Part shown: positions 28,113-39,338 of the stretch, one piece after another
Numbering within the stretch: the stretch's first letter is position 1
Layout: each line of letters starts with the position of its first letter
Made by a program: the position numbers and the translations under genes
DNA from: Collimonas silvisoli
Lineage (GTDB): Bacteria > Pseudomonadota > Gammaproteobacteria > Burkholderiales > Burkholderiaceae_D
Length of the DNA stretch: 39,472 nucleotides
Assembly (NCBI RefSeq): GCF_018305005.1
Contig: NZ_JAGQEG010000051.1
Span: 1-39,472 of the forward strand
Reading direction: 5' to 3'
The notes under the pieces: generated by a model
What the model saw: the letters and a program-made list of their open reading frames with translations, nothing else
Told to the model about the DNA's origin: nothing
Database searches by the model: none

Positions 28113-29735
28113 ATGCCCCAAATAGAAAGCAAGCTGAACCCACGCAGCGAAGAATTCCAGCAAAACGCCAACGCACTCAACCTGCTGGTAAACGATCTGC
28201 GCCAGAAAGTCGCACAGATCGCCGAGGGCGGCGGCGAGGCCGCGCGCAACAAGCATGTGGCGCGTGGCAAGCTGCTGCCGCGCGACCGCGTGCAGATGCT
28301 GCTCGATCCCGGCACGCCGTTCATGGAGTTTTCCCAACTGGCCGCCTATCACGTCTACAAAGACAAGGATGGCAGCGATGCAGCGCCCGCCGCCGGCGTG
28401 ATTACCGGCATCGGCCGCATCGCCGGCCAGGAATGCGTGGTGGTCTGCAATGACGCCACCGTCAAGGGCGGCACCTACTATCCGCTCAGCGTCAAAAAAC
28501 ATTTGCGGGCGCAGGAAATCGCCGAGCAAAACAACTTGCCTTGCATCTACCTGGTCGATAGCGGCGGCGCCAATTTGCCGAATCAAGACGAGGTGTTTCC
28601 TGACCGCGACCATTTCGGCCGCATCTTCTACAACCAGGCCAACCTGTCGGCCAAAGGCATTCCGCAAATCGCGGTGGTGATGGGATCGTGCACCGCCGGC
28701 GGCGCCTATGTGCCGGCGATGAGCGACGAATCGATCATCGTCAAGAACCAGGGCACGATTTTCCTGGCCGGCCCGCCGCTGGTGAAAGCGGCGACTGGCG
28801 AAGTGGTCAGCGCCGAGGATCTGGGCGGCGGCGATGTTCACACCCGCTTGTCAGGCGTGGCCGATCATCTGGCGCAAAACGATATGCACGCGTTGTCGCT
28901 GGCGCGCACCATCGTCTCCAACCTGAACCGGCAAAAACCGCCAGGCCCATTGCTGCGCCCGGTAGTCGAACCGAAGTACCCGGCGCAGGAACTGTATGGC
29001 GTGATTCCGCTCGATACCCGCAAGCCCTTCGATGTGCGCGAAGTAATCGCACGCATCGTCGACGGCAGCGAATTCGATGAATTCAAGGCGCGCTACGGCA
29101 GCACGCTGATTTGCGGCTTTGCCCATATCTACGGCATGCCGGTCGGCATCGTCGCTAACAACGGCATCCTGTTTTCCGAAGCGGCCCTGAAAGGCACGCA
29201 CTTCATCGAGCTTTGCTCGCAACGCAAGATCCCGCTGGTGTTCCTGCAAAACATCACCGGCTTCATGGTCGGCCGCCGCTACGAAAACGAAGGCATCGCC
29301 CGCAACGGCGCCAAGATGGTGACTGCGGTGGCGACTACTGCTGTGCCCAAGCTGACGGTGATCATCGGCGGCAGTTTCGGCGCCGGCAACTACGGCATGT
29401 GCGGCCGCGCCTACTCGCCGCGTTTCCTGTGGATGTGGCCGAATGCGCGGATCTCGGTGATGGGCGGCGAACAAGCCGCCGGCGTGCTGGCGACCGTCAA
29501 GCGCGATGGCATCGAAGCCAGGGGCGGCAACTGGAGCGCCGGCGAGGAAGAAGCTTTCAAAAAGCCGATTCGCGATCAGTATGAACATCAGGGCCATCCG
29601 TATTACGCCTCCGCTCGCTTGTGGGACGACGGCGTGATCGATCCGGCCGATACGCGCCGGGTGCTGGGGCTGGGTTTGAGCGCTGCTTTGAATGCGCCGA
29701 TTGCGGAAACCAGGTTCGGTGTGTTCCGGATGTAA
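28113..29735 (+). CDS. liuB: Methylcrotonyl-CoA carboxylase beta (carboxyltransferase) subunit
   Basis: A 540-residue carboxyltransferase that moves CO2 from biotin (on the LiuD subunit) to 3-methylcrotonyl-CoA, giving 3-methylglutaconyl-CoA. Motifs are [53 protein letters not shown] and [15 protein letters not shown], with the C-terminal acyl-CoA-site block [17 protein letters not shown] typical of MCC rather than propionyl-CoA carboxylase. Length matches LiuB of pseudomonads (about 535). Start ATG at 28113, with AAAGGA upstream. Its partner subunit is displaced about 7.6 kb downstream, with six other genes plus one micro-ORF between. Confidence 0.95.
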
Positions 29736-29744
29736 GCCCAAACA

Positions 29745-30692
29745 GTGAAAAAAATCATGGCAAAAATAACAGGGGTATCGGTGACACGGGCAATACGGCA
29801 TGGCCTGGCTGGCTCATGTCTGTGCGCATGTGCCTACCTAAGCATCTGGTCCGCGCATGCGGCAGACCAGCCCCTGGCTCAGGATTTGAATGAGGCTGTT
29901 ACCAGCTTGCCGGTGAAGGTCAAGAATTTGTATGGCCGTCCCGTCTCCGGCAATGTCATCGTGACGCAATTCAAGCCCGCCGGCGCCGGGCCGTTTCCGA
30001 TTGTCGTCATCAATCACGGCCGCAATGGCAACGATCGTTCCAAACCGGCGCGCTTCCGCTACACGCCGCAAGTGCGCTTCTTCATCGAGCGCGGTTTTGC
30101 CGTGTTTGTGCCGACCCGGCTAGGCTATGGCGACACCGGCGTCGAGCCCGACCCGGAAGATAGCGGCGGCTGCCGCGATAAAGATTACGGACCGATGGCC
30201 GAGGCTGCCAGCAGCGAAGTGCTGGCGGTGCTCGATTACGCCAGGCAGCAGCCCTACGTCAATCCTGAGCGGGTGCTGCTGGTCGGCCAGTCGGTTGGCG
30301 GTTACACCACTACCGCCACTGCGGCCAGGATGCCGCAAGGGTTGGTGGCGGCAATCAATTTTGCCGGCGGCGCCGGCGGCGATCCGGAGACGCATCCCGG
30401 TGTGCCTTGCCAGGGCGCCAAGCTGGAAAGCATGTACGCGCAATTCGGCAAGACTGCCAAGGTGCCGATGCTCTGGGTCTACACCCAGAACGACTTGTAT
30501 TTCGGTCCGCAATACAGCCAGGCGTGGCATGCCGCGTTTAACCAGGCCGGCGGCCAGGCTGAATTCAAATTGCTGCCGCCGTTTGCCAAGAATGGACATT
30601 TGCTATTTTCATCCGGTCTCAGCATCTGGGAACCAGTGGTGGCTGAATTTCTGGGACGGAATGGATTTCATGCGGAGCCAGTAAATAAATGA
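29745..30692 (+). CDS. Exported alpha/beta hydrolase (dienelactone hydrolase-like)
   Basis: A protein of about 315 residues with an N-terminal signal peptide ending near IWSAHAADQP, so it is secreted to the periplasm. The fold is alpha/beta hydrolase: the oxyanion region is VVINHGRNGND, the nucleophile is the Ser in VGQSVGGYTT, and the final His lies in NGHLLF; an Asp in YTQNDLYFG is a candidate third member. The start is GTG at 29745 or ATG at 29757, and neither has a clear ribosome site. It is not part of the known leucine route, although it sits between liuB and liuC. Its stop overlaps a 26-codon micro-ORF (ATGA). Confidence 0.83.
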   Translation: MKKIMAKITGVSVTRAIRHGLAGSCLCACAYLSIWSAHAADQPLAQDLNEAVTSLPVKVKNLYGRPVSGNVIVTQFKPAGAGPFPIVVINHGRNGNDRSKPARFRYTPQVRFFIERGFAVFVPTRLGYGDTGVEPDPEDSGGCRDKDYGPMAEAASSEVLAVLDYARQQPYVNPERVLLVGQSVGGYTTTATAARMPQGLVAAINFAGGAGGDPETHPGVPCQGAKLESMYAQFGKTAKVPMLWVYTQNDLYFGPQYSQAWHAAFNQAGGQAEFKLLPPFAKNGHLLFSSGLSIWEPVVAEFLGRNGFHAEPVNK

Positions 30693-30769
30693 TGCAACAA
30701 TATTTCGCAACGCTGGCCCGTTACTATGTCTGGGCCGTAGCAATGCGGCAAGTGGAGATGAACAAGTGA
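30689..30769 (+). CDS. 26-residue micro-ORF bridging the hydrolase and liuC
   Basis: ATG at 30689 overlaps the hydrolase stop (ATGA), and its TGA at 30767-30769 overlaps the GTG start of the hydratase (GTGA). It encodes MMQQYFATLARYYVWAVAMR plus six more residues, an aromatic, possibly membrane-associated helix. GGAG lies 11-14 nt upstream. It exactly fills the gap between the two genes and would carry ribosomes to the liuC start. Its role may be only coupling; a functional peptide is possible. No family known. Confidence 0.5.
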   Translation: MMQQYFATLARYYVWAVAMRQVEMNK

Positions 30770-31551
30770 CTTATCAAACGTTAGCAGTCCAGCATGCGCC
30801 TCAGGTGGCCACTATCGTCCTCAACCGGCCCGAAGTACGCAACGCCTTCAACGAGACCATGATTGCCGAAATCACCCACGCTTTTGCCGCACTGGGCAGC
30901 GCCGCGGAAGTGAGGGCGATTGTGCTGACCGCCAACGGCGCGGCGTTCTGCGCCGGCGGCGACCTTAACTGGATGAAGGCGATGGCGGACTACACGCCAG
31001 AACAGAACCGCGCCGACGCCGCGCTGCTGGCGACCATGTTGCGCACCATTTACCAATGCCCGAAACCGGTGATCGCCAAAGTACAGGGCGATTGCTATGC
31101 CGGCGGACTCGGCCTGGCGGCTGCCTGCGATATCGTGGCGGCGGTGGATACGGCGCAGTTCTGCCTGTCGGAAGTGAAGATAGGCTTGATCCCGGCGACC
31201 ATCTCGCCCTACGTCATCAAAGCCATCGGCGAGTCGGCTGCACGCCGCTACTTTATTACCGCCGAACGCTTTTCCGCCGAGACTGCGCAGCGGATCGGGC
31301 TGGTGCATGAAGTGGTCGAGGCGGAAAAACTGGATGAAAGCGTGGGCTTGCTGCTCAAGGCATTATTGGCGGCCAGTCCTAACGCAGTCACCGAAGCCAA
31401 GCGTCTGGTGCGGGCGATTGCCGGGCAGCCGCTGACGGAAATACTGATTGCCGATACGGTCGAAGAGATCGCCAAAATCCGGGCTTCCGCTGAAGGACGC
31501 GAGGGCGTGCGCGCTTTCCTGGAGAAGCGCAAGCCGTCTTGGTTGGCGTGA
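30766..31551 (+). CDS. liuC: Methylglutaconyl-CoA hydratase (enoyl-CoA hydratase family)
   Basis: A 261-residue crotonase-fold enzyme that hydrates 3-methylglutaconyl-CoA to HMG-CoA in leucine catabolism. Visible motifs are IVLNRPEVRNAFNETMIAE, the oxyanion block AAFCAGGDLNWMKAMADYT (the DLNWM form typical of LiuC/AUH) and GDCYAGGLGLAAACDIVAA, with SEVKIGLIPATISPYV for the second catalytic Glu region. The start is GTG at 30766, with GGAG 9-10 nt upstream; there is no usable ATG. Translation is probably coupled to the micro-ORF before it. Expected next enzyme, HMG-CoA lyase, is not in the window. Confidence 0.92.
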   Translation: MTYQTLAVQHAPQVATIVLNRPEVRNAFNETMIAEITHAFAALGSAAEVRAIVLTANGAAFCAGGDLNWMKAMADYTPEQNRADAALLATMLRTIYQCPKPVIAKVQGDCYAGGLGLAAACDIVAAVDTAQFCLSEVKIGLIPATISPYVIKAIGESAARRYFITAERFSAETAQRIGLVHEVVEAEKLDESVGLLLKALLAASPNAVTEAKRLVRAIAGQPLTEILIADTVEEIAKIRASAEGREGVRAFLEKRKPSWLA

Positions 31552-31583
31552 TCACATACAATCTCGTCCTTGCAGAGATTTAA

Positions 31584-31610
31584 ATGTCGGAAAAGATATT
31601 AAATGATTAA
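31584..31610 (+). other. 8-codon leader ORF overlapping the P450 start
   Basis: ATG at 31584 opens an 8-residue frame (MSEKILND) that ends in TAA at 31608-31610, overlapping the P450 ATG at 31603 by 8 nt (ATGATTAA). GAGAT lies upstream. It may be chance, but the overlap length is the same as between the following genes. Confidence 0.3.
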
Positions 31611-32886
31611 CGAAGCGTTTTTGAAGGACCCTTACCCTGCCTACCACGCTCTGCGTGCAGAAGGCGCGCTGCACTGGAGCCCGGAGTTTTGCGGCGGCGC
31701 CTGGCTGTTGACCGGCCATGCCGATGTCGCCAGCGTGTTGCGCGATCCGCGCTTCTCGGTGCGGCGCGCGGGCGGCTGGGCCAATAGCAGCGGTCCGGAA
31801 GCATTGACCGAATTGCGTGAATTCAAACGGATTTTTTCACGTTCGCTATTGTTCGTGGATGCGCCGCAGCACAGCCGTTTGCGCCAGGTGATGAATGCGG
31901 GTTTCAAACCGGCCGCATTGCAGGAGCTGGGGCCGCAGATACAGACCATCGTCGACCGTTTGCTGGATCAGGTATTGGCCAAGGCCGCTGACAGCGCGCC
32001 CGGGCAATTTGCTCAATTCGACTTTATGCGTGATTTCGCCCGTCCCCTGCCGGCGCTGGTGATCGCCAGCATGCTCGGCATCGCCGCCGAAGACCGCAGC
32101 GAATTCGTCGCCTGGTCCGACGATATCGCGGCCTTCATCGGCAGCCCGACGCCGACGCTGGAGATTGCCCGCGCGGCGCAGGTCAGCCTGATCGCCATGA
32201 ACGAATATTTTCGTCAGCTGCTGCCGCAGCGCCGCGCCGCCCTCGGCGACGATCTGATGAGCCAGCTGATACGCGCCGAAGCCAGCGGCGGCGTCATCAC
32301 CACCAAGGAATTGCTGGCGCAGTGCTGCACGCTGTTGTTCGCCGGCCATGAAACCACGCGCAATCTGCTAGGCAACGGCATGCTGGCGCTGCTGCAACAT
32401 CCGCAGCAATGGCAAGCGCTGCAAGACACGCCGTCGCTGCTGCCATCCGCCTTAAAGGAATTATTGCGTTTCGACAGCCCGGTGCAATACACCGGACGCC
32501 GCCTCAAGGTCAACGTCGAGATGCATGGCCAGCTGATGAAAAAAGGCGATCTAGTGATTCCGCTGATCGGCGCCGCCAATCGCGACCCGGCCAAATTCAC
32601 CGACCCGGACCGGCTCGATATCGAGCGCAACCAGGGTGCGCATCTGTCCTTCGGTTACGGCCCGCATGTCTGCATCGGCGCGACGCTGACCTATCTGGAA
32701 GCGGAAATCGCCATGCGCAGCGTGATGCGGCGTTTGCCGCAGCTGCAGCTGGCTAGCGCCACTCAATCATGGGGCGGCAACGCGGTATATCGCAGCCTGA
32801 ACCAGCTGCCGCTGCAATTTGCACGGCCGTCGGCAGCTGCGTCCATGGCCACGTCCGCACTACCAGTGGAAGCACAATATGCCTGA
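31603..32886 (+). CDS. Cytochrome P450, BioI-like by context
   Basis: A 427-residue soluble bacterial P450. The I-helix oxygen-activation motif is FAGHETTRN (residues 246-254, with T251/T252), the ExxR motif is KELLRF, and the heme-thiolate loop is FGYGPHVCIG with Cys357. No redox partner is fused or adjacent. A TAA stands directly before ATG 31603, fixing the start. Its stop overlaps the bioF start by 8 nt (ATGCCTGA at 32879-32886), the same arrangement as bioF/bioA and bioA/bioD. In Bacillus, the P450 BioI in the biotin operon cleaves acyl-ACP to make pimeloyl-ACP. I infer a similar role here. Another oxidation is possible, since family membership alone does not show it. Confidence 0.87.
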   Translation: MINEAFLKDPYPAYHALRAEGALHWSPEFCGGAWLLTGHADVASVLRDPRFSVRRAGGWANSSGPEALTELREFKRIFSRSLLFVDAPQHSRLRQVMNAGFKPAALQELGPQIQTIVDRLLDQVLAKAADSAPGQFAQFDFMRDFARPLPALVIASMLGIAAEDRSEFVAWSDDIAAFIGSPTPTLEIARAAQVSLIAMNEYFRQLLPQRRAALGDDLMSQLIRAEASGGVITTKELLAQCCTLLFAGHETTRNLLGNGMLALLQHPQQWQALQDTPSLLPSALKELLRFDSPVQYTGRRLKVNVEMHGQLMKKGDLVIPLIGAANRDPAKFTDPDRLDIERNQGAHLSFGYGPHVCIGATLTYLEAEIAMRSVMRRLPQLQLASATQSWGGNAVYRSLNQLPLQFARPSAAASMATSALPVEAQYA

Positions 32887-34087
32887 ACTGCTGACCCAGA
32901 TCCGCGAGCAACTGGCTGCGCTGCAAGAGCAGAAGCTATTGCGCAAGCGGCGCATCGTCGACGGCCCGCAAGGGCCGCTGCTGGAGCTCGAAGGCCGCCA
33001 ATACCTGGCCTTTTGCAGCAACGATTATCTCGGCCTGGCGAACCATCCGGCACTGCACGCCGCAGCGCAGGCCGGGCTGGATCGGTACGGCGTCGGCGCC
33101 AGCGCTTCGGCGCTGATCAGCGGCCACACCAGCGTGGTCGAAGAGCTGGAACTGGCGCTGGCGGCATTCGTCGGCATGCCGCGCGCCTTGCATTTTTCGA
33201 CCGGCTACATGGCCAACATGGGAACCATCCCGGCGCTGGTCGGCCCCGGCGATATTGTTTTTTCGGACCGCCTGAATCATGCTTGCCTGATCGACGGTGC
33301 GCGCTTGTCGGGCGCGCAGTTCCGCATTTACCCGCATGCCGATGTGGCGCGGCTGGAACAATTGCTGGCCAAGAGCAGCCACCCGCGCAAGCTGATCGTC
33401 ACCGACGCGGTCTTCAGCATGGACGGCGATATCGCGCCGTTGCCGGAGTTGCTGGCCCTGTGCGAGAAATACGATGCCTGGCTGCTGGTCGACGACGCCC
33501 ACGGTTTCGGCGTGCTGGGTCCGCAAGGGCGCGGCAGCCTGGCGCATTTCGGCCTGCAGTCGCAACGCATCCTGTATATGGGAACCCTGGGCAAGGCAGC
33601 CGGTGTGGCCGGCGCTTTCGTCGCCGGCGATGCATTGCTGATCGAGTGGCTGCTGCAACGCGCGCGCACTTACGTGTTTACCACCGCCAGCCCGCCCATG
33701 TTGGCGAGCGCCTTGCTGGCGGCAGTCGAGTTGATGCAGACCGAAGACTGGCGGCAACAGCATTTGCGCGTATTGATTGCGCACTTGCGCAACGGGCTGG
33801 CCAGCCTGCCATGGCCCTTGCTGCCGTCGGAGACGCCGGTGCAGGCATTGATCGTCGAAGACAACCAGCTGGCGCTGGACCTGATGGCTGGCTTGCGCGA
33901 GCAAGGCATCTGGGTGCCGGCGATCCGGCCGCCAACCGTACCAAAGGGCACGGCGCGCCTGCGCATATCGCTGTCGGCAGCGCACAGCATCGAACAAATA
34001 GATCAATTGGTCGGCGTTTTGCATGCGCTGGCCAAAAATTATGCGGGCGCGGATTCGCGCAGCATAGCGAGGAGTGCAGTTGAGTAA
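32879..34087 (+). CDS. bioF: 8-amino-7-oxononanoate synthase
   Basis: A 402-residue PLP enzyme of the alpha-oxoamine synthase family. It condenses pimeloyl-ACP/CoA with L-alanine to form 8-amino-7-oxononanoate. Motifs are YLAFCSNDYLGLANHPAL near the N terminus, GVGASASALISGHTSVVEEL, the PLP-aspartate region LLVDDAHGFGVLGPQGRG and the Schiff-base lysine K239 in MGTLGKAAGVAGAF. The start is the ATG at 32879, with GGAAG 5 nt upstream, inside the last codons of the P450 gene. Its stop overlaps the bioA start by 8 nt. The chain of overlaps means one transcript with coupled translation. Confidence 0.95.
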   Translation: MPELLTQIREQLAALQEQKLLRKRRIVDGPQGPLLELEGRQYLAFCSNDYLGLANHPALHAAAQAGLDRYGVGASASALISGHTSVVEELELALAAFVGMPRALHFSTGYMANMGTIPALVGPGDIVFSDRLNHACLIDGARLSGAQFRIYPHADVARLEQLLAKSSHPRKLIVTDAVFSMDGDIAPLPELLALCEKYDAWLLVDDAHGFGVLGPQGRGSLAHFGLQSQRILYMGTLGKAAGVAGAFVAGDALLIEWLLQRARTYVFTTASPPMLASALLAAVELMQTEDWRQQHLRVLIAHLRNGLASLPWPLLPSETPVQALIVEDNQLALDLMAGLREQGIWVPAIRPPTVPKGTARLRISLSAAHSIEQIDQLVGVLHALAKNYAGADSRSIARSAVE

Positions 34088-35453
34088 AAAGAATACACCC
34101 GCACCGCAGTCAGATCTGGTTCAGCGCAGCCTGAACAGCGTCTGGCATCCGTGCACCCAGATGCAACACCATGAATCGGTGCCGCTGATCGCGGTCAGCC
34201 GCGGCCGTGGCGCCTGGTTGTACGACAGCGACGGCAAACGTTACCTGGACGCGATCAGCTCCTGGTGGGTCAACCTGTTCGGCCACGCCAATCCGCGCAT
34301 CAACGCTGCATTGAAGGATCAGCTCGACCAGCTTGAACACGCGATGCTGGCCGGCTTCACGCATGAACCGGTAGTGCAGCTGTCGGAGCAACTGGCGGCG
34401 CGTACCGGTAATGTGCTGGGCCATTGTTTTTATGCTTCGGATGGCGCCTCTGCGGTCGAGATCGCTCTGAAGATGAGTTTCCACGCCTGGCGCAACGCCG
34501 GTTACGGCGACAAGCAGGAATTCGTTTGCCTGAAGGGCAGTTATCACGGCGAAACCATCGGCGCGCTGGCGGTCACCGATGTGCCCTTGTTCCGCGACGC
34601 CTATGGCCCCATGCTGCGGCAGGCGCATGTGGTGGCCTCGCCCGATGCGCGCGCCGCCCGCGACGGCGAGAGCGCCGCCGACGTCGCTCATCGCGCTGCC
34701 GCCACGCTGGAAATATTACTGCAGCAGCGCTCCAGTCATATCGCCGCCATCATCGTCGAACCGCTGGTGCAATGCGCCACCGGCATGGCGATGCACGATC
34801 CGGTTTATCTGCGCGAATTGCGTGCCTTGTGCGACCGCTACAAAGTCCATCTGATCTTTGACGAGATTGCCGTCGGCTGCGGACGCACCGGGACTTTCTT
34901 TGCCTCCGAACAGGCGGCAGCCCCGGGAGAACCGCCAATCTGGCCTGACTTCCTCTGTCTGTCGAAAGGCATCAGCGGCGGTTATCTGCCTTTATCGCTG
35001 GTGATGACGCGCGCTGAAATCTACCAGGCGTTCTACGATCACGACCTGGCGCGCGGTTTCCTGCACTCGCATTCCTACACCGGCAATCCGCTGGCTTGCC
35101 GCGCTGCGCTGGCGACGCTGGCGATTTTCGAGGAAGACGACGTACTCAACGCCAATCGCCAGCGGGCGCAACGTATTACTGCAGCGCTGGCGCCATTGGC
35201 GCAACATCCGAAAGTGCAGCATTTCCGTCAGCGCGGCATGATCTGGGCCTTCGACGCTGTCATCGACAACAAGGCGCAGGCAGCGACATTCTCGCGCCGG
35301 TTTTTCAGCAGCGCGGTGGAGCATGAGCTGCTGCTGCGGCCGATTGGCAAAACCGTCTACCTGATGCCGCCGTATATCCTCGACGACGAAGAAATCGCGT
35401 TGCTGGCAAGCCGTACAGCCGCAGTTTTCGAAAGCGTGATCGGCCATGACTAA
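34080..35453 (+). CDS. bioA: Adenosylmethionine-8-amino-7-oxononanoate aminotransferase
   Basis: A 457-residue fold-type I, class III aminotransferase. It converts 8-amino-7-oxononanoate to 7,8-diaminononanoate with S-adenosylmethionine as amino donor. Signatures are [65 protein letters not shown] and the PLP lysine K296 in [15 protein letters not shown] choose TTG at 34080 (AGGAG 5 nt upstream, overlap TTGAGTAA with bioF) over GTG at 34074, which would place the start inside the ribosome site. It also overlaps bioD by 8 nt at 35446-35453. Confidence 0.95.
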
Positions 35454-36201
35454 CGCGACCGTGCATCCGCCAAAGGCTGCGTGGTTCGTCGCCGGCACCG
35501 ATACCGAAATCGGCAAGACGCTGATCACCGGCGCCTTGCTGCATGGACTGAGAAAAACCGGCGTTCGCAGTGCCGGCATGAAGCCGGTTGCCGCCGGCGC
35601 CGAATTGCGCGACGGCGTCTGGCACAACGACGATGCAGACATATTGGCGGCAGAGGGCAGCGTGGCGCTGCCGCAGGAACTCACTACACCGTTTTTGTTG
35701 CGCCAGCCGACTGCACCGCATATCGCCGCAGCACAAGAAGAGCGGACGATCGAACTGGCGGATATCCTGTCCTGTTATCGGCAGATCGCCGCGTTGGCCG
35801 ATGCAGTGGTAATTGAAGGCGTTGGCGGTTTCCGCGTGCCGCTCAACGATACGCACGATACCGCCGACCTGGCGCAGCAGCTCGGCTTGCCGGTGGTGCT
35901 GGTGGTGGGCTTGCGGCTGGGTTGCATCAGCCACGCGCTGCTGACGGTCGAGGCGATTGCGGCGCGCGGTTTGCCGCTGGCCGGCTGGGTGGCCAACACA
36001 GTCGACCCCGCCATGCTGAATGGCGACGCCAACATTGCCGCATTGAAGCAGCGCATCGATGCGCCCTTTCTAGGCCACGTGCCGCGCATGAGCGTATTGC
36101 CCGCCAAAGCGCTGGTCGAAGCCGCCGCCGGTCATTTGAATTTTTCCTGTTTGCCGGGTTGGCCTGACTCATTCGATGCCAAGCCCGCCGGCAACACATA
36201 A
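35446..36201 (+). CDS. bioD: Dethiobiotin synthetase
   Basis: A 251-residue ATP-dependent enzyme that closes the ureido ring of dethiobiotin from diaminononanoate and CO2. The P-loop is GTDTEIGKT (residues 17-25). MKPVAAGAE supplies the conserved Lys, and [12 protein letters not shown] the switch-II-like region. The final base-recognition part includes [11 protein letters not shown]. Start ATG at 35446, overlapping bioA by ATGACTAA. It is slightly longer than E. coli BioD (225). The bioB gene follows after 39 nt. Confidence 0.95.
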
Positions 36202-36240: not shown

Positions 36241-37287
36241 ATGTCATCGCAACCAATTACATTCCAGCCAGCGGCTAAGCCAATGGTTTTGCCGACCGAC
36301 GCCAAGTGGCCGGTGCAAGCTGTGCTGGATCTCTTTAACCTGCCATTCAACGAATTGTTGTTCAAGGCGCAGCAGGCGCATCGCGAAAATTTCGACCCGA
36401 ATGAAGTCGAACTGGCGACGCTGTTGTCGATCAAGACCGGCGGCTGTCCGGAAGATTGCGGCTATTGCCCGCAAGCGGCGCGTTACGACACCGGCGTCAC
36501 CGCGCAAAAAATGCTGCCGCTGGACACCGTGCTGGAAGCCGCACGGCAAGCCAAGGCGCATGGCGCAACGCGTTTCTGCATGGGTGCGGCATGGCGCGAA
36601 CCGAAAGACCGCGATCTGGAAAAAGTCGAAGAGATGGTGCGTGAAGTCAAGGCGCTGGGCCTGGAAACCTGCGCCACGCTGGGCATGCTGGGCGAAGGCC
36701 AGGCTGAACGCCTGAAGGGCGCCGGTCTGGATTACTACAACCATAACCTCGATACCGCGCCGGAAATCTACGGCGACATCATCACCACCCGCGATTACCA
36801 GAACCGCCTGGATACGCTGGACAGCGTGCGCGGCGCCGGCATCAAGGTTTGCTGCGGCGGCATCGTCGGCATGGGTGAATCGCGTTTGCAACGGGCCGGC
36901 CTGGTGGCGCAACTGGCGAATCTGGAACCGTATCCGGAATCGGTGCCGGTGAATAACCTGGTGCAGGTCGAAGGCACGCCGCTGCACGGCATCGACCCGA
37001 TCGACCTGTTCGAGTTCGTACGCACCGTAGCCGTGGCTCGCATCACCATGCCGAAGGCGCGGGTACGTTTGTCCGCCGGCCGCCGGCAAATGGGCGAGGC
37101 GATCCAGTCCCTGTGTTTCCTGGCCGGCGCCAACTCGATTTTCTACGGCGACAAGCTGCTCACCACCGGTAATCCGGAAGTCGAAGAAGACCGCGCTCTG
37201 CTGGAGAAGCTCGGCATGCATTCGCGTTCCTCGACCTTCGATGCGCGTTGCGAAGTAACCGCTGACAGCAACGCCCAACCACAATAA
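36241..37287 (+). CDS. bioB: Biotin synthase
   Basis: A 348-residue radical-SAM enzyme (E. coli BioB 346) that inserts sulfur into dethiobiotin. The 4Fe-4S cluster motif is C69-x3-C73-x2-C76 in [14 protein letters not shown]. Residues for the second cluster are seen in [11 protein letters not shown] and [14 protein letters not shown], with the Arg in [14 protein letters not shown]. Start ATG at 36241, with AAGGAAG 8-9 nt upstream. It is the last of the biotin genes. The biotin-dependent carboxylase subunit follows 20 nt later, so the same transcript could make cofactor and apo-enzyme. Confidence 0.97.
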
Positions 37288-37307
37288 TTCCAATGGGGGG
37301 AGACAGC

Positions 37308-39338
37308 ATGTTTACCAAAATCCTGAGTGCCAACCGCGGCGAGATTGCCTGCCGCGTGGCTGCCACCGCACGGCGCATGGGTATCAAGACCGTGGCCGTG
37401 TATTCGGAAGCCGACGCCGGCGCCAAGCACGTCGCGGTGTGCGACGAGGCGGTGCTGATCGGCCCCGCGACGGCCAAGGAAAGTTATCTGCGCGCCGACA
37501 AGGTCATCGAAGTGGCCTTGGCCACCGGCGCGCAGGCGATCCATCCCGGCTACGGCTTCCTGTCCGAAAACGCCCAGTTTGCCGCAGCCTGCGCCAAGGC
37601 CGGCCTGGTATTCATCGGCCCGCCGGCCAGTGCGATTTCGGCGATGGGTTCGAAATCGGCTGCCAAGGAGTTGATGGAAACAGCCAAGGTGCCGCTGGTG
37701 CCCGGTTATCACGGCGAGACCCAGGATGCCGATTTTTTGCAGCAGCAGGCCGACAAGATTACTTATCCGGTGCTGCTCAAAGCCAGCGCCGGCGGTGGCG
37801 GCAAGGGCATGCGCATCGTTGAGCAAAGCGCCGATTTCAAGGCTGCGCTGGCGTCTTGCAAACGCGAGGCGATCAACAGCTTCGGCGACGACAAGGTGCT
37901 GGTCGAACGCTATCTGACCCGCCCGCGTCATATCGAGATCCAGGTGTTTGCCGATACCCGGGGCGAATGCGTTTACCTGTTCGAACGCGATTGCTCGGTA
38001 CAGCGCCGCCATCAGAAAGTGCTGGAAGAAGCGCCGGCGCCGGGCATGACGCCGGAACGCCGGCGCGCCATGGGCGAAGCAGCGGTGGCGGCGGCCAAGG
38101 CGGTCGGCTACGTCGGTGCGGGTACGGTGGAATTCATCGCCAACCAGGACGGCTCTTTCTATTTCATGGAGATGAACACCCGCCTGCAGGTAGAACATCC
38201 GGTGACAGAAATGATTACCGGCCTCGATCTGGTCGAGTGGCAATTGCGGGTGGCTTCAGGTGAACCGTTGCCGCTCAAGCAGGAGCAATTGCAACTCAGC
38301 GGCCACGCGCTGGAAGCGCGGATCTATGCCGAAAATCCGGACAAGGGATTCCTGCCGTCGACAGGTACTTTGCGTCATCTGCACACGCCAGCCGCCAGTG
38401 AATTTGCGGTCAGCCAGTCCAGCGCCAGCATCGTGCGGATCGATTCCGGCGTGCGTCAGGGCGACGCCATTTCGCCGTTCTACGATCCGATGATCGCCAA
38501 GCTGATCGTCTGGGGCCAGGACCGGCAGCAAGCGCTGGCGGCGATGGCCAAGGCGCTGGCGGAATATCAGATTGTCGGCCTGGCCAGCAACGTCAAGTTC
38601 CTGCAGCGTCTGGTGGCAAGTCAGGCGTTCTCCGAAGCGGATCTGGATACCGGCCTGATCGAACGTCATCAGGACACGCTGTTTCCAACCGCCACTCCGG
38701 TGGCGATTGAAGTGCTGGCCTTGGCGGCGGCATCGCTGCTGCTGTCGGAACGCAACGCCGTCAACAATGCAGGCAGCGATCCATGGACCAATACCGATGG
38801 CTGGCGCCTGAACGGCAACCTGCAACGTCGCTTGGCATTTGTCGACGACGGCAAGGCCAGTCCGCTCGATGTCACGTATGAAGCGGCGCGCTGGCTGCTG
38901 CACCACGAGCAGCTTGAGACGCAGACTTTACAGCAGACTTTCAAGCAGATGACCGTGCTGGAGCAAGACGGCGATTTCATCGAAATCAGTCTCGGCGACA
39001 GAACCGCGGCCGGCACCGTGGTGCGCGAAGGCGAGCAGTTCCACGTGTTTTACGCCGGCAGCCAGCACACGCTAGGTTACGTCGATCCGTTGCTGCACGC
39101 CGGTGATGTCGAAGCCGAAGGCGGCCGCCTGACAGCGCCGATGCCAGGCAAGATCGTCGCGCTGCTGGTAAGCCAAGGCGAACAGGTAAAAAAAGGCGCA
39201 CCATTACTGATCATGGAAGCAATGAAGATGGAGCACACGATTGCAGCCCCGGCCGACGGCCTGGTTGAAGAACTGCTGTACGCGGTAGGCGATCAGGTAA
39301 GCGAATCCGCCCAGCTGCTGGTCTTTAAAGCGGCTTAA
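37308..39338 (+). CDS. liuD: Methylcrotonyl-CoA carboxylase alpha subunit (biotin carboxylase + BCCP)
   Basis: A 676-residue biotin-carrying subunit. The N-terminal biotin-carboxylase domain (about residues 1-450) begins with KILSANRGEIACRVAATAR. It has the ATP-grasp glycine loop KASAGGGGKGMRIV and the catalytic block FYFMEMNTRLQVEHPVTEM. A linking BT-type domain follows, and then a C-terminal biotinyl domain with biotin on K640 in IMEAMKMEHTI. Size matches LiuD (about 655). Acetyl- or propionyl-CoA carboxylase would look similar, so the MCC call rests on the surrounding liu genes. The start is the ATG at 37308, with GGGGGGAGA upstream. Encoded well apart from its partner liuB. Confidence 0.94.
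   Translation: MFTKILSANRGEIACRVAATARRMGIKTVAVYSEADAGAKHVAVCDEAVLIGPATAKESYLRADKVIEVALATGAQAIHPGYGFLSENAQFAAACAKAGLVFIGPPASAISAMGSKSAAKELMETAKVPLVPGYHGETQDADFLQQQADKITYPVLLKASAGGGGKGMRIVEQSADFKAALASCKREAINSFGDDKVLVERYLTRPRHIEIQVFADTRGECVYLFERDCSVQRRHQKVLEEAPAPGMTPERRRAMGEAAVAAAKAVGYVGAGTVEFIANQDGSFYFMEMNTRLQVEHPVTEMITGLDLVEWQLRVASGEPLPLKQEQLQLSGHALEARIYAENPDKGFLPSTGTLRHLHTPAASEFAVSQSSASIVRIDSGVRQGDAISPFYDPMIAKLIVWGQDRQQALAAMAKALAEYQIVGLASNVKFLQRLVASQAFSEADLDTGLIERHQDTLFPTATPVAIEVLALAAASLLLSERNAVNNAGSDPWTNTDGWRLNGNLQRRLAFVDDGKASPLDVTYEAARWLLHHEQLETQTLQQTFKQMTVLEQDGDFIEISLGDRTAAGTVVREGEQFHVFYAGSQHTLGYVDPLLHAGDVEAEGGRLTAPMPGKIVALLVSQGEQVKKGAPLLIMEAMKMEHTIAAPADGLVEELLYAVGDQVSESAQLLVFKAA

Follow-up and report, generated by a model that had tools for sequence, protein, structure and literature searches.

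In the BioC/BioH pathway of biotin synthesis, the pimeloyl moiety is made under a methyl-ester disguise and not by oxidative cleavage. Where this pathway is present, as in Escherichia coli and some Burkholderiaceae, bioC adjoins bioF, and the accessible part of PMC3494674 describes the esterases around BioC as exchanged. In alphaproteobacteria, according to the available text of PMC7645780, BioC/BioH is replaced from inside the bio cluster by BioZ, a FabH-like condensing enzyme. The cytochrome P450 BioI (CYP107H1) is encoded among the bio genes of the Bacillus subtilis bio operon, and the part of PMC11089781 available to us places it in a limited number of microorganisms. Here, we describe a P450 encoded among the bio genes of Collimonas silvisoli, on contig NZ_JAGQEG010000051.1, whose full 39,472 nucleotides (nt) we call the window. 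Its gene precedes and overlaps bioF, in which it differs from bioI. It adjoins bioF as bioC does elsewhere, though neither bioC nor bioH exceeds its cut-off in this genome, and it would be, like BioZ, a proteobacterial replacement for BioC/BioH inside a bio cluster, albeit no condensing enzyme. Moreover, B. subtilis relies on BioW, going by the accessible parts of PMC7645780 and PMC11089781, and no BioW was found here. Among the titles and abstract openings listed by our literature search, with most subscription papers outside it, none dealt with a P450 in a proteobacterial biotin operon.

We consider it likely, from comparisons of sequences and predicted structure, that this P450 is BioI-like and supplies pimeloyl-acyl carrier protein (pimeloyl-ACP) to the co-encoded BioF, because its gene order, its inheritance together with bioF, the lack of any other known supplier over its cut-off, its intact motifs and a nearest fold in BioI all point that way. 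An earlier note on this DNA, made from the letters alone, had raised the idea of a proteobacterial P450 route to the pimeloyl moiety; the comparative tests that follow support such a putative route, and none refuted it.

The P450-bioF pair across the family

Our sample was an even draw of 392 genomes from the GTDB family, with duplicate proteins and junctions removed before counting. A P450 match at E ≤ 1e-40 occurred in 102 of the 392 genomes and reached at least 375 bits in 53, and in 43 of these 53 the P450 gene lies directly upstream of bioF. The earlier note reasoned that absence of the P450 from beside bioF in close relatives would suggest a chance insertion; in fact, the pair is present in 15/15 genomes of the window's genus and in four more genera, comprising 5/5 genomes of g15 (the genus holding Glaciimonas soli), 21/21 of the P450-positive genomes of genus g27, and the single genomes G036 and G314. 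The remaining ten of the 53 all belong to genus g19 (14 loci, 407–426 bits), and none of the six g19 loci read, from four genomes, has bio genes within 15–16 kb of the P450. These g19 proteins are about 50% identical to the window P450 and form a separate sister clade in the tree (support 100/99), being the nearest kin of the window-type P450s (99/97). Among the 49 genomes with weaker matches, the four loci read showed no bio genes, three of these loci being cut by a contig end.

Where the pair occurs, the two genes are often joined in the same way. With the bioF start taken as the candidate closest to the expected position, the 43 distinct P450/bioF junctions divide into 26 with an 8-nt overlap, three with a 4-nt overlap, one with a 16-nt overlap and 13 with a gap of 1–145 nt. 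The 8-nt overlap is kept even with P450s only 50–53% identical, and its recurrence exceeds chance. The gene order itself varies, with P450-bioF-bioA-bioD-bioB in the window, bioB-P450-bioF-bioA-bioD in most of g27, and P450-bioF without other bio genes at the loci of G296 and G314.

The distribution within g27 indicates that the two genes are inherited jointly. All 21 P450-positive genomes have an adjoining bioF, and of the 12 genomes tested that lack the P450, 10 gave no bioF match at E ≤ 1e-65, a threshold that a strongly divergent bioF could escape (Fisher 7e-7, with kinship ignored). Here, bioF was searched in 40 hand-chosen genomes, and G330 (g27, 63% complete) was left out. The ten genomes lacking bioF at this threshold (G152, G185, G196, G239, G286, G291, G306, G311, G321 and G326) may be biotin auxotrophs. 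Within the window's own genus, both P450 and bioF of G197 (L039) are split between reading frames, which reflects either joint decay or sequencing errors.

The P450 itself appears intact and maintained. Its motifs AGHETT, ELLR (residues 286–289) and FGYGPHVCIG are present, and these contain the heme-thiolate motif, the ExxR and the I-helix AGxET that define the cytochrome P450 superfamily; the heme cysteine is Cys357. A Pfam search of the genome (5.66 Mb, 241 contigs) found no second P450. In three Collimonas comparisons, the ratio of nonsynonymous to synonymous substitution rates (dN/dS) was 0.08–0.10 for the P450 and 0.07–0.11 for bioF, and the P450 is thus under purifying selection; the values against Glaciimonas were saturated for P450, bioF and bioA and were not used. 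Identity to the window P450 is 85–94% in eight Collimonas records, 79% in Glaciimonas soli, 73% in Mesorhizobium norvegicum and 30% in an eleventh record.

The earlier note had taken the serial overlaps as proof that the P450 is a true member of the biotin operon. That membership holds because the pairing with bioF and its 8-nt overlap are conserved; the argument from serial overlaps taken alone is weak. Conversely, the P450 might serve an unrelated metabolism and stand in the operon by chance. The unlinked g19 relatives would suit that explanation, as would the alphaproteobacterium M. norvegicum, in which an intact P450 is followed by a degenerate bioF remnant (L017:7001–8560). We nonetheless regard it as extremely improbable in view of the linkage, which spans five genera and 43 genomes, the recurrent overlap, the purifying selection and the joint presence of both genes in g27.

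A further Collimonas assembly, L013, has the order P450-bioF-bioA-bioD-bioB with an intact P450, only a fragment of the flanking hydratase gene and no carboxylase gene within 15 kb; the P450 is preceded by a large gene on the opposite strand and here starts a free-standing bio operon. The P450 and bioF of L013 are identical to those of G102, a reduced genome of the same genus (1.7 Mb, 130 contigs, listed as 99% complete) that retains P450-bioFADB.

The bioF tree places the P450-linked bioF genes together on a weaker branch (95/78), with those of G301 and G316 included, while the bioC-linked ones form one clade (100/100) and those from operons without P450 or bioC another (99/100). Between the window and 13 loci of this last type in other genera (L135–L147), bioF is 49–56% identical and bioA, present in 12 of the 13, is 74–80% identical; the bioA tree is poorly resolved. 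On sequence grounds, the bioF pattern is consistent with bioF and its supplier having been replaced together or having co-evolved, and it may partly follow the species tree. As to mobility, G314 carries an ordinary bio operon (L169) plus a separate P450-bioF pair (L093:7582–14952), the latter adjoining genes for a thiolase, a FadJ-like 3-hydroxyacyl-coenzyme A (CoA) dehydrogenase and a CoA-transferase. The relic in M. norvegicum hints at a possible transfer of the pair from betaproteobacteria into alphaproteobacteria. G014 contains another two bioB-P450 copies, both of them decayed (L167, L168).

Other suppliers of the pimeloyl moiety

The earlier note had seen no BioC or BioH in the window, and the genome-wide searches agree, with no complete bioC/bioH pathway over the cut-offs and no BioW either. 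The best BioC match in the C. silvisoli genome scores 173 bits, under the TIGR02072 cut-off of 184.95, and starts at profile position 17. We rejected this protein as BioC, given that its kind is near-universal, kept without bioF, absent from the bioF-bearing G102 and placed outside the BioC clade. Among the matches listed, a BioC-model match at E ≤ 1e-30 occurs in 383/392 genomes, with 20 over the cut-off, and a sub-cut-off match occurs in 10/10 of the bioF-less g27 genomes. Judging from similar scores, the 383 matches presumably represent one orthologous protein, of which 11 were placed in the tree; these 11 weaker proteins make up a separate clade (100/100), distinct from the 20 BioC proteins over the cut-off. 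Of the latter, 19 cluster together (89/90), and the remaining one sits elsewhere in the tree on a long branch. Two BioC matches were found in 28 genomes among the matches listed, and 19 of the 20 over-cut-off genomes, likewise among the matches listed, have such a second, weaker match. Neither the 28 genomes nor the 20 overlap with the 43 linked-P450 genomes. In G102, the best matches are 42.5 bits for BioC and 47.4 bits for BioH, such that even the BioC-like protein is absent, an absence that could stem from an assembly gap. As a side observation, the gene for the BioC-like methyltransferase at L001:490–2331 is divergent from a comF/gntX-type gene and resembles the bioH/yhgH arrangement of E. 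coli (L181).

Where bioC is over its cut-off, it mostly keeps company with bioF. In seven of the nine such genomes searched, at most 2 kb separates the two genes, and in G038 and G087 they are on different contigs. The five such loci fetched have the order bioF, hydrolase gene, bioC, and for the four hydrolases scanned, from genera other than that of the window, the best model was BioH, at 146–183 bits and below the strict cut-off of 206.95. For a BioH-type esterase in the C. silvisoli genome, the best matches score 74.5 and 60.4 bits, in searches that did not extend to BioJ, BioK and BioV, and we rejected both as BioH, these being PcaD lactonases (3-oxoadipate enol-lactonases). BioW (TIGR01204) was found in 0/15 genomes, with positive controls in B. 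subtilis and Methanocaldococcus jannaschii, and BioG (PF04301) also in 0/15, with the control genomes equally without a match. A scan of nine proteins encoded around the operon, which did not extend further into the genome, showed no BioZ.

The main rival explanation, which we judge unlikely, is that pimeloyl-ACP comes by a hidden Burkholderiaceae route, such as the BioC-like protein with some esterase, and that the P450 is accessory or a back-up. Several observations that speak for such a route weigh against the P450 as supplier. The BioC-model match is nearly ubiquitous, its score in this genome is close under the cut-off, and the protein is encoded in the very genome of the window by a gene adjoining a comF/gntX-type gene, as is bioH in E. 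coli. Moreover, the 13 loci L135–L147 hold bio genes without P450 or bioC; among the matches listed, a second BioC match appears in two of the 13 genomes (G038 and G030) and is lacking in the other 11, and BioW is absent from all six tested. Some other route must therefore exist in these genomes, and it could exist in Collimonas too. In addition, G301 and G316 have P450-type bioF together with bioA, bioD and bioB and no P450 at E ≤ 1e-40, the operon of G316 starting 200 nt from a contig end, and these two genomes are evidence against a strict need for the P450 with this type of bioF. In B. subtilis itself, by the accessible parts of PMC7645780 and PMC11089781, BioI is dispensable, BioW is the key enzyme and BioF is unable to use pimeloyl-ACP. 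Against the hidden route stand the retention of the BioC-like match in the ten bioF-less g27 genomes and its loss from bioF-bearing G102, the separate clade that these proteins form, and the presence of the weaker match beside a true-scoring BioC in 19 of 20 genomes. The bio genes of L135–L147 often lie within leucine-degradation-type genes.

Comparison with BioI

The comparison with BioI that the earlier note had proposed gave a divided answer, with profile and fold nearest to BioI, a low identity, and no clear sign either way from the tree or the pocket. A profile built from 13 bio-linked P450s and run against the PDB ranked BioI best (294 bits), ahead of PksS (285) and PikC (275). Likewise, Foldseek placed the 12 BioI-ACP chains at ranks 1–12 with PikC next. 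The nearest fold of the modelled window P450 thus appears to be that of BioI, by a small margin. Overall, the window P450 and BioI share 129 identical residues out of 355 aligned (36%). Members of one CYP family generally share more than 40% identity, and by this rule the sequence does not qualify as a member of CYP107H.

The pocket was compared at the 31 ligand-lining BioI positions given in the available part of PMC10741444, of which 28 could be mapped and three could not; for one, this source gives Ser56 where the chain has Phe, and the position number was used. Ten of the 28 positions are identical in the window P450 (R59, L81, F82, I168, T284 and five more), compared with seven in PksS and four, with gaps at several, in PikC. 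Among the 13 bio-linked P450s, the pocket is invariant at 17/28 positions, as against 85/330 elsewhere.

Here, too, some measures count against the favoured reading. In the tree, BioI has a long branch, falls outside the window P450 clade and is not its sister, though we rejected this tree as a test of kinship, finding it uninformative owing to its long branches. The single window sequence scores higher with PikC (257.6) than with BioI (251.1), and the Foldseek margin is small, from E 8.5e-25 at rank 12 to 1.2e-24 for PikC. The AlphaFold model, made without templates, is moderate, with a mean predicted local distance difference test (pLDDT) score of 74.8 and values below 50 at residues 348–356 of the heme loop. 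Furthermore, the pocket is no closer to BioI than is the whole protein (10/28 versus 130/357), and the unlinked g19 P450s share 13 of the 17 invariant pocket residues. With their low match to BioI and being mostly common to g19, the pocket residues were unusable as proof of BioI-like function.

These features leave room for a P450 that acts in biotin metabolism in another role, be it making a precursor such as free pimelic acid, hydroxylating an intermediate or producing a biotin-like metabolite. A constant pocket largely unlike that of BioI, the 36% identity, and g19 relatives that share most of the pocket and lie away from bio genes at 6/6 loci would all fit such a role. We find it distinctly improbable, as the P450 gene stands beside bioF, where pimelate genes stand in other genomes, and no BioW for activating free pimelate is found in 15/15 genomes. 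On balance, the sequence comparisons suggest that the window P450 probably works like BioI, and the best reading is that it was recruited separately from the BioI of Bacillus.

The locus and the proposed route

Each of the five genes from the P450 to bioB lies above its curated family cut-off, from Pfam for the P450 and from NCBIfam for the rest (Table 1).

Table 1. Genes of the P450-bio locus and flanking genes in the window
Feature	Coordinates	Strand	Evidence and remarks
Acyl-CoA carboxylase carboxyltransferase subunit (flanking)	28113..29735	+	Probably methylcrotonyl-CoA type, from context
Enoyl-CoA hydratase family gene (flanking)	30766..31551	+	PF00378; 51 nt upstream of P450
Cytochrome P450, 427 amino acids	31603..32886	+	Pfam cut-off passed; proposed pimeloyl-ACP-forming enzyme (predicted)
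bioF	32879..34087	+	TIGR00858, 488.6 bits (cut-off 426.45)
bioA	34080..35453	+	TIGR00508, 520.1 bits (cut-off 405); TTG start, 8-nt overlap with bioF
bioD	35446..36201	+	TIGR00347, 158.6 bits (cut-off 83.3); 8-nt overlap with bioA
bioB (biotin synthase)	36241..37287	+	TIGR00433, 405.7 bits (cut-off 225); 39 nt past bioD
Biotin carboxylase / biotin carrier protein (flanking)	37293..39338	+	Likely same carboxylase as 28113..29735

Read off the sequence, the three serial overlaps described in the earlier note are all there at 8 nt each, namely ATGCCTGA at 32879–32886 (P450/bioF), TTGAGTAA at 34080–34087 (bioF/bioA) and ATGACTAA at 35446–35453 (bioA/bioD). The second depends on the TTG start of bioA, since the upstream GTG (34074) would lengthen it to 14 nt. 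An AGGAG ends 5 nt upstream of the TTG, and seven of the nine named relatives (L008–L016) share the TTG, the identical 8-nt overlap and an AGGA-like site, the exceptions being L016, which is different, and L010, which cannot be read in this manner.

The same note put the P450 first in the operon, which holds for the biotin genes; for the transcript it is not certain, given the hydratase gene close upstream on the same strand. The same-strand run also continues past bioB into the carboxylase gene. A scan of 30600–31700 for promoters and terminators yielded nothing useful, with neither a terminator nor a promoter match on the forward strand, and an Rfam scan of the window gave no matches. From its context, the hydratase gene presumably has a role in leucine breakdown. 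Between the carboxylase and hydratase genes, at 29745–30692, sits an alpha/beta hydrolase gene with a signal-peptide-like start; it is present at only some of the relatives' loci, and its product has no match to the BioH model at E ≤ 0.001.

In the route that we propose, the P450 would most likely bind a long-chain acyl-ACP from fatty acid synthesis, oxidise the acyl chain at C7 and C8 and break the C7–C8 bond, as B. subtilis BioI does, to give pimeloyl-ACP. BioF would then condense pimeloyl-ACP with alanine, and BioA, BioD and BioB would complete biotin, with the P450 standing in for BioC/BioH. The elements that we infer are the substrate, the site of cleavage, the carrier (ACP, as opposed to CoA or the free acid) and the need for the P450 in biotin-free growth. 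A bolder form of this proposal, for which we see the case as evenly balanced, would make the P450 an independent second lineage and the sole dedicated pimelate source in Collimonas, Glaciimonas and part of g27, partnered by a matching BioF able to use pimeloyl-ACP and with P450-bioF as a translationally coupled mobile module, as the extra pair of G314 and the relic of M. norvegicum would suggest.

BioI has been something of a puzzle, in that it makes pimeloyl-ACP and yet, in the available text of PMC7645780 and PMC11089781, B. subtilis has no need of it and has a BioF that cannot use the product. A group that inherits P450 and bioF jointly, with no BioC, BioH or BioW over cut-off in the genome studied here, makes a P450 route to biotin directly testable, and such an enzyme might find use in biotin production. 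The question is also raised of where many other Burkholderiaceae obtain their pimelate. If the bolder form of the proposal is true, there would be a bacterial group for which the oxidative cleavage of fatty acids is the main road to biotin.

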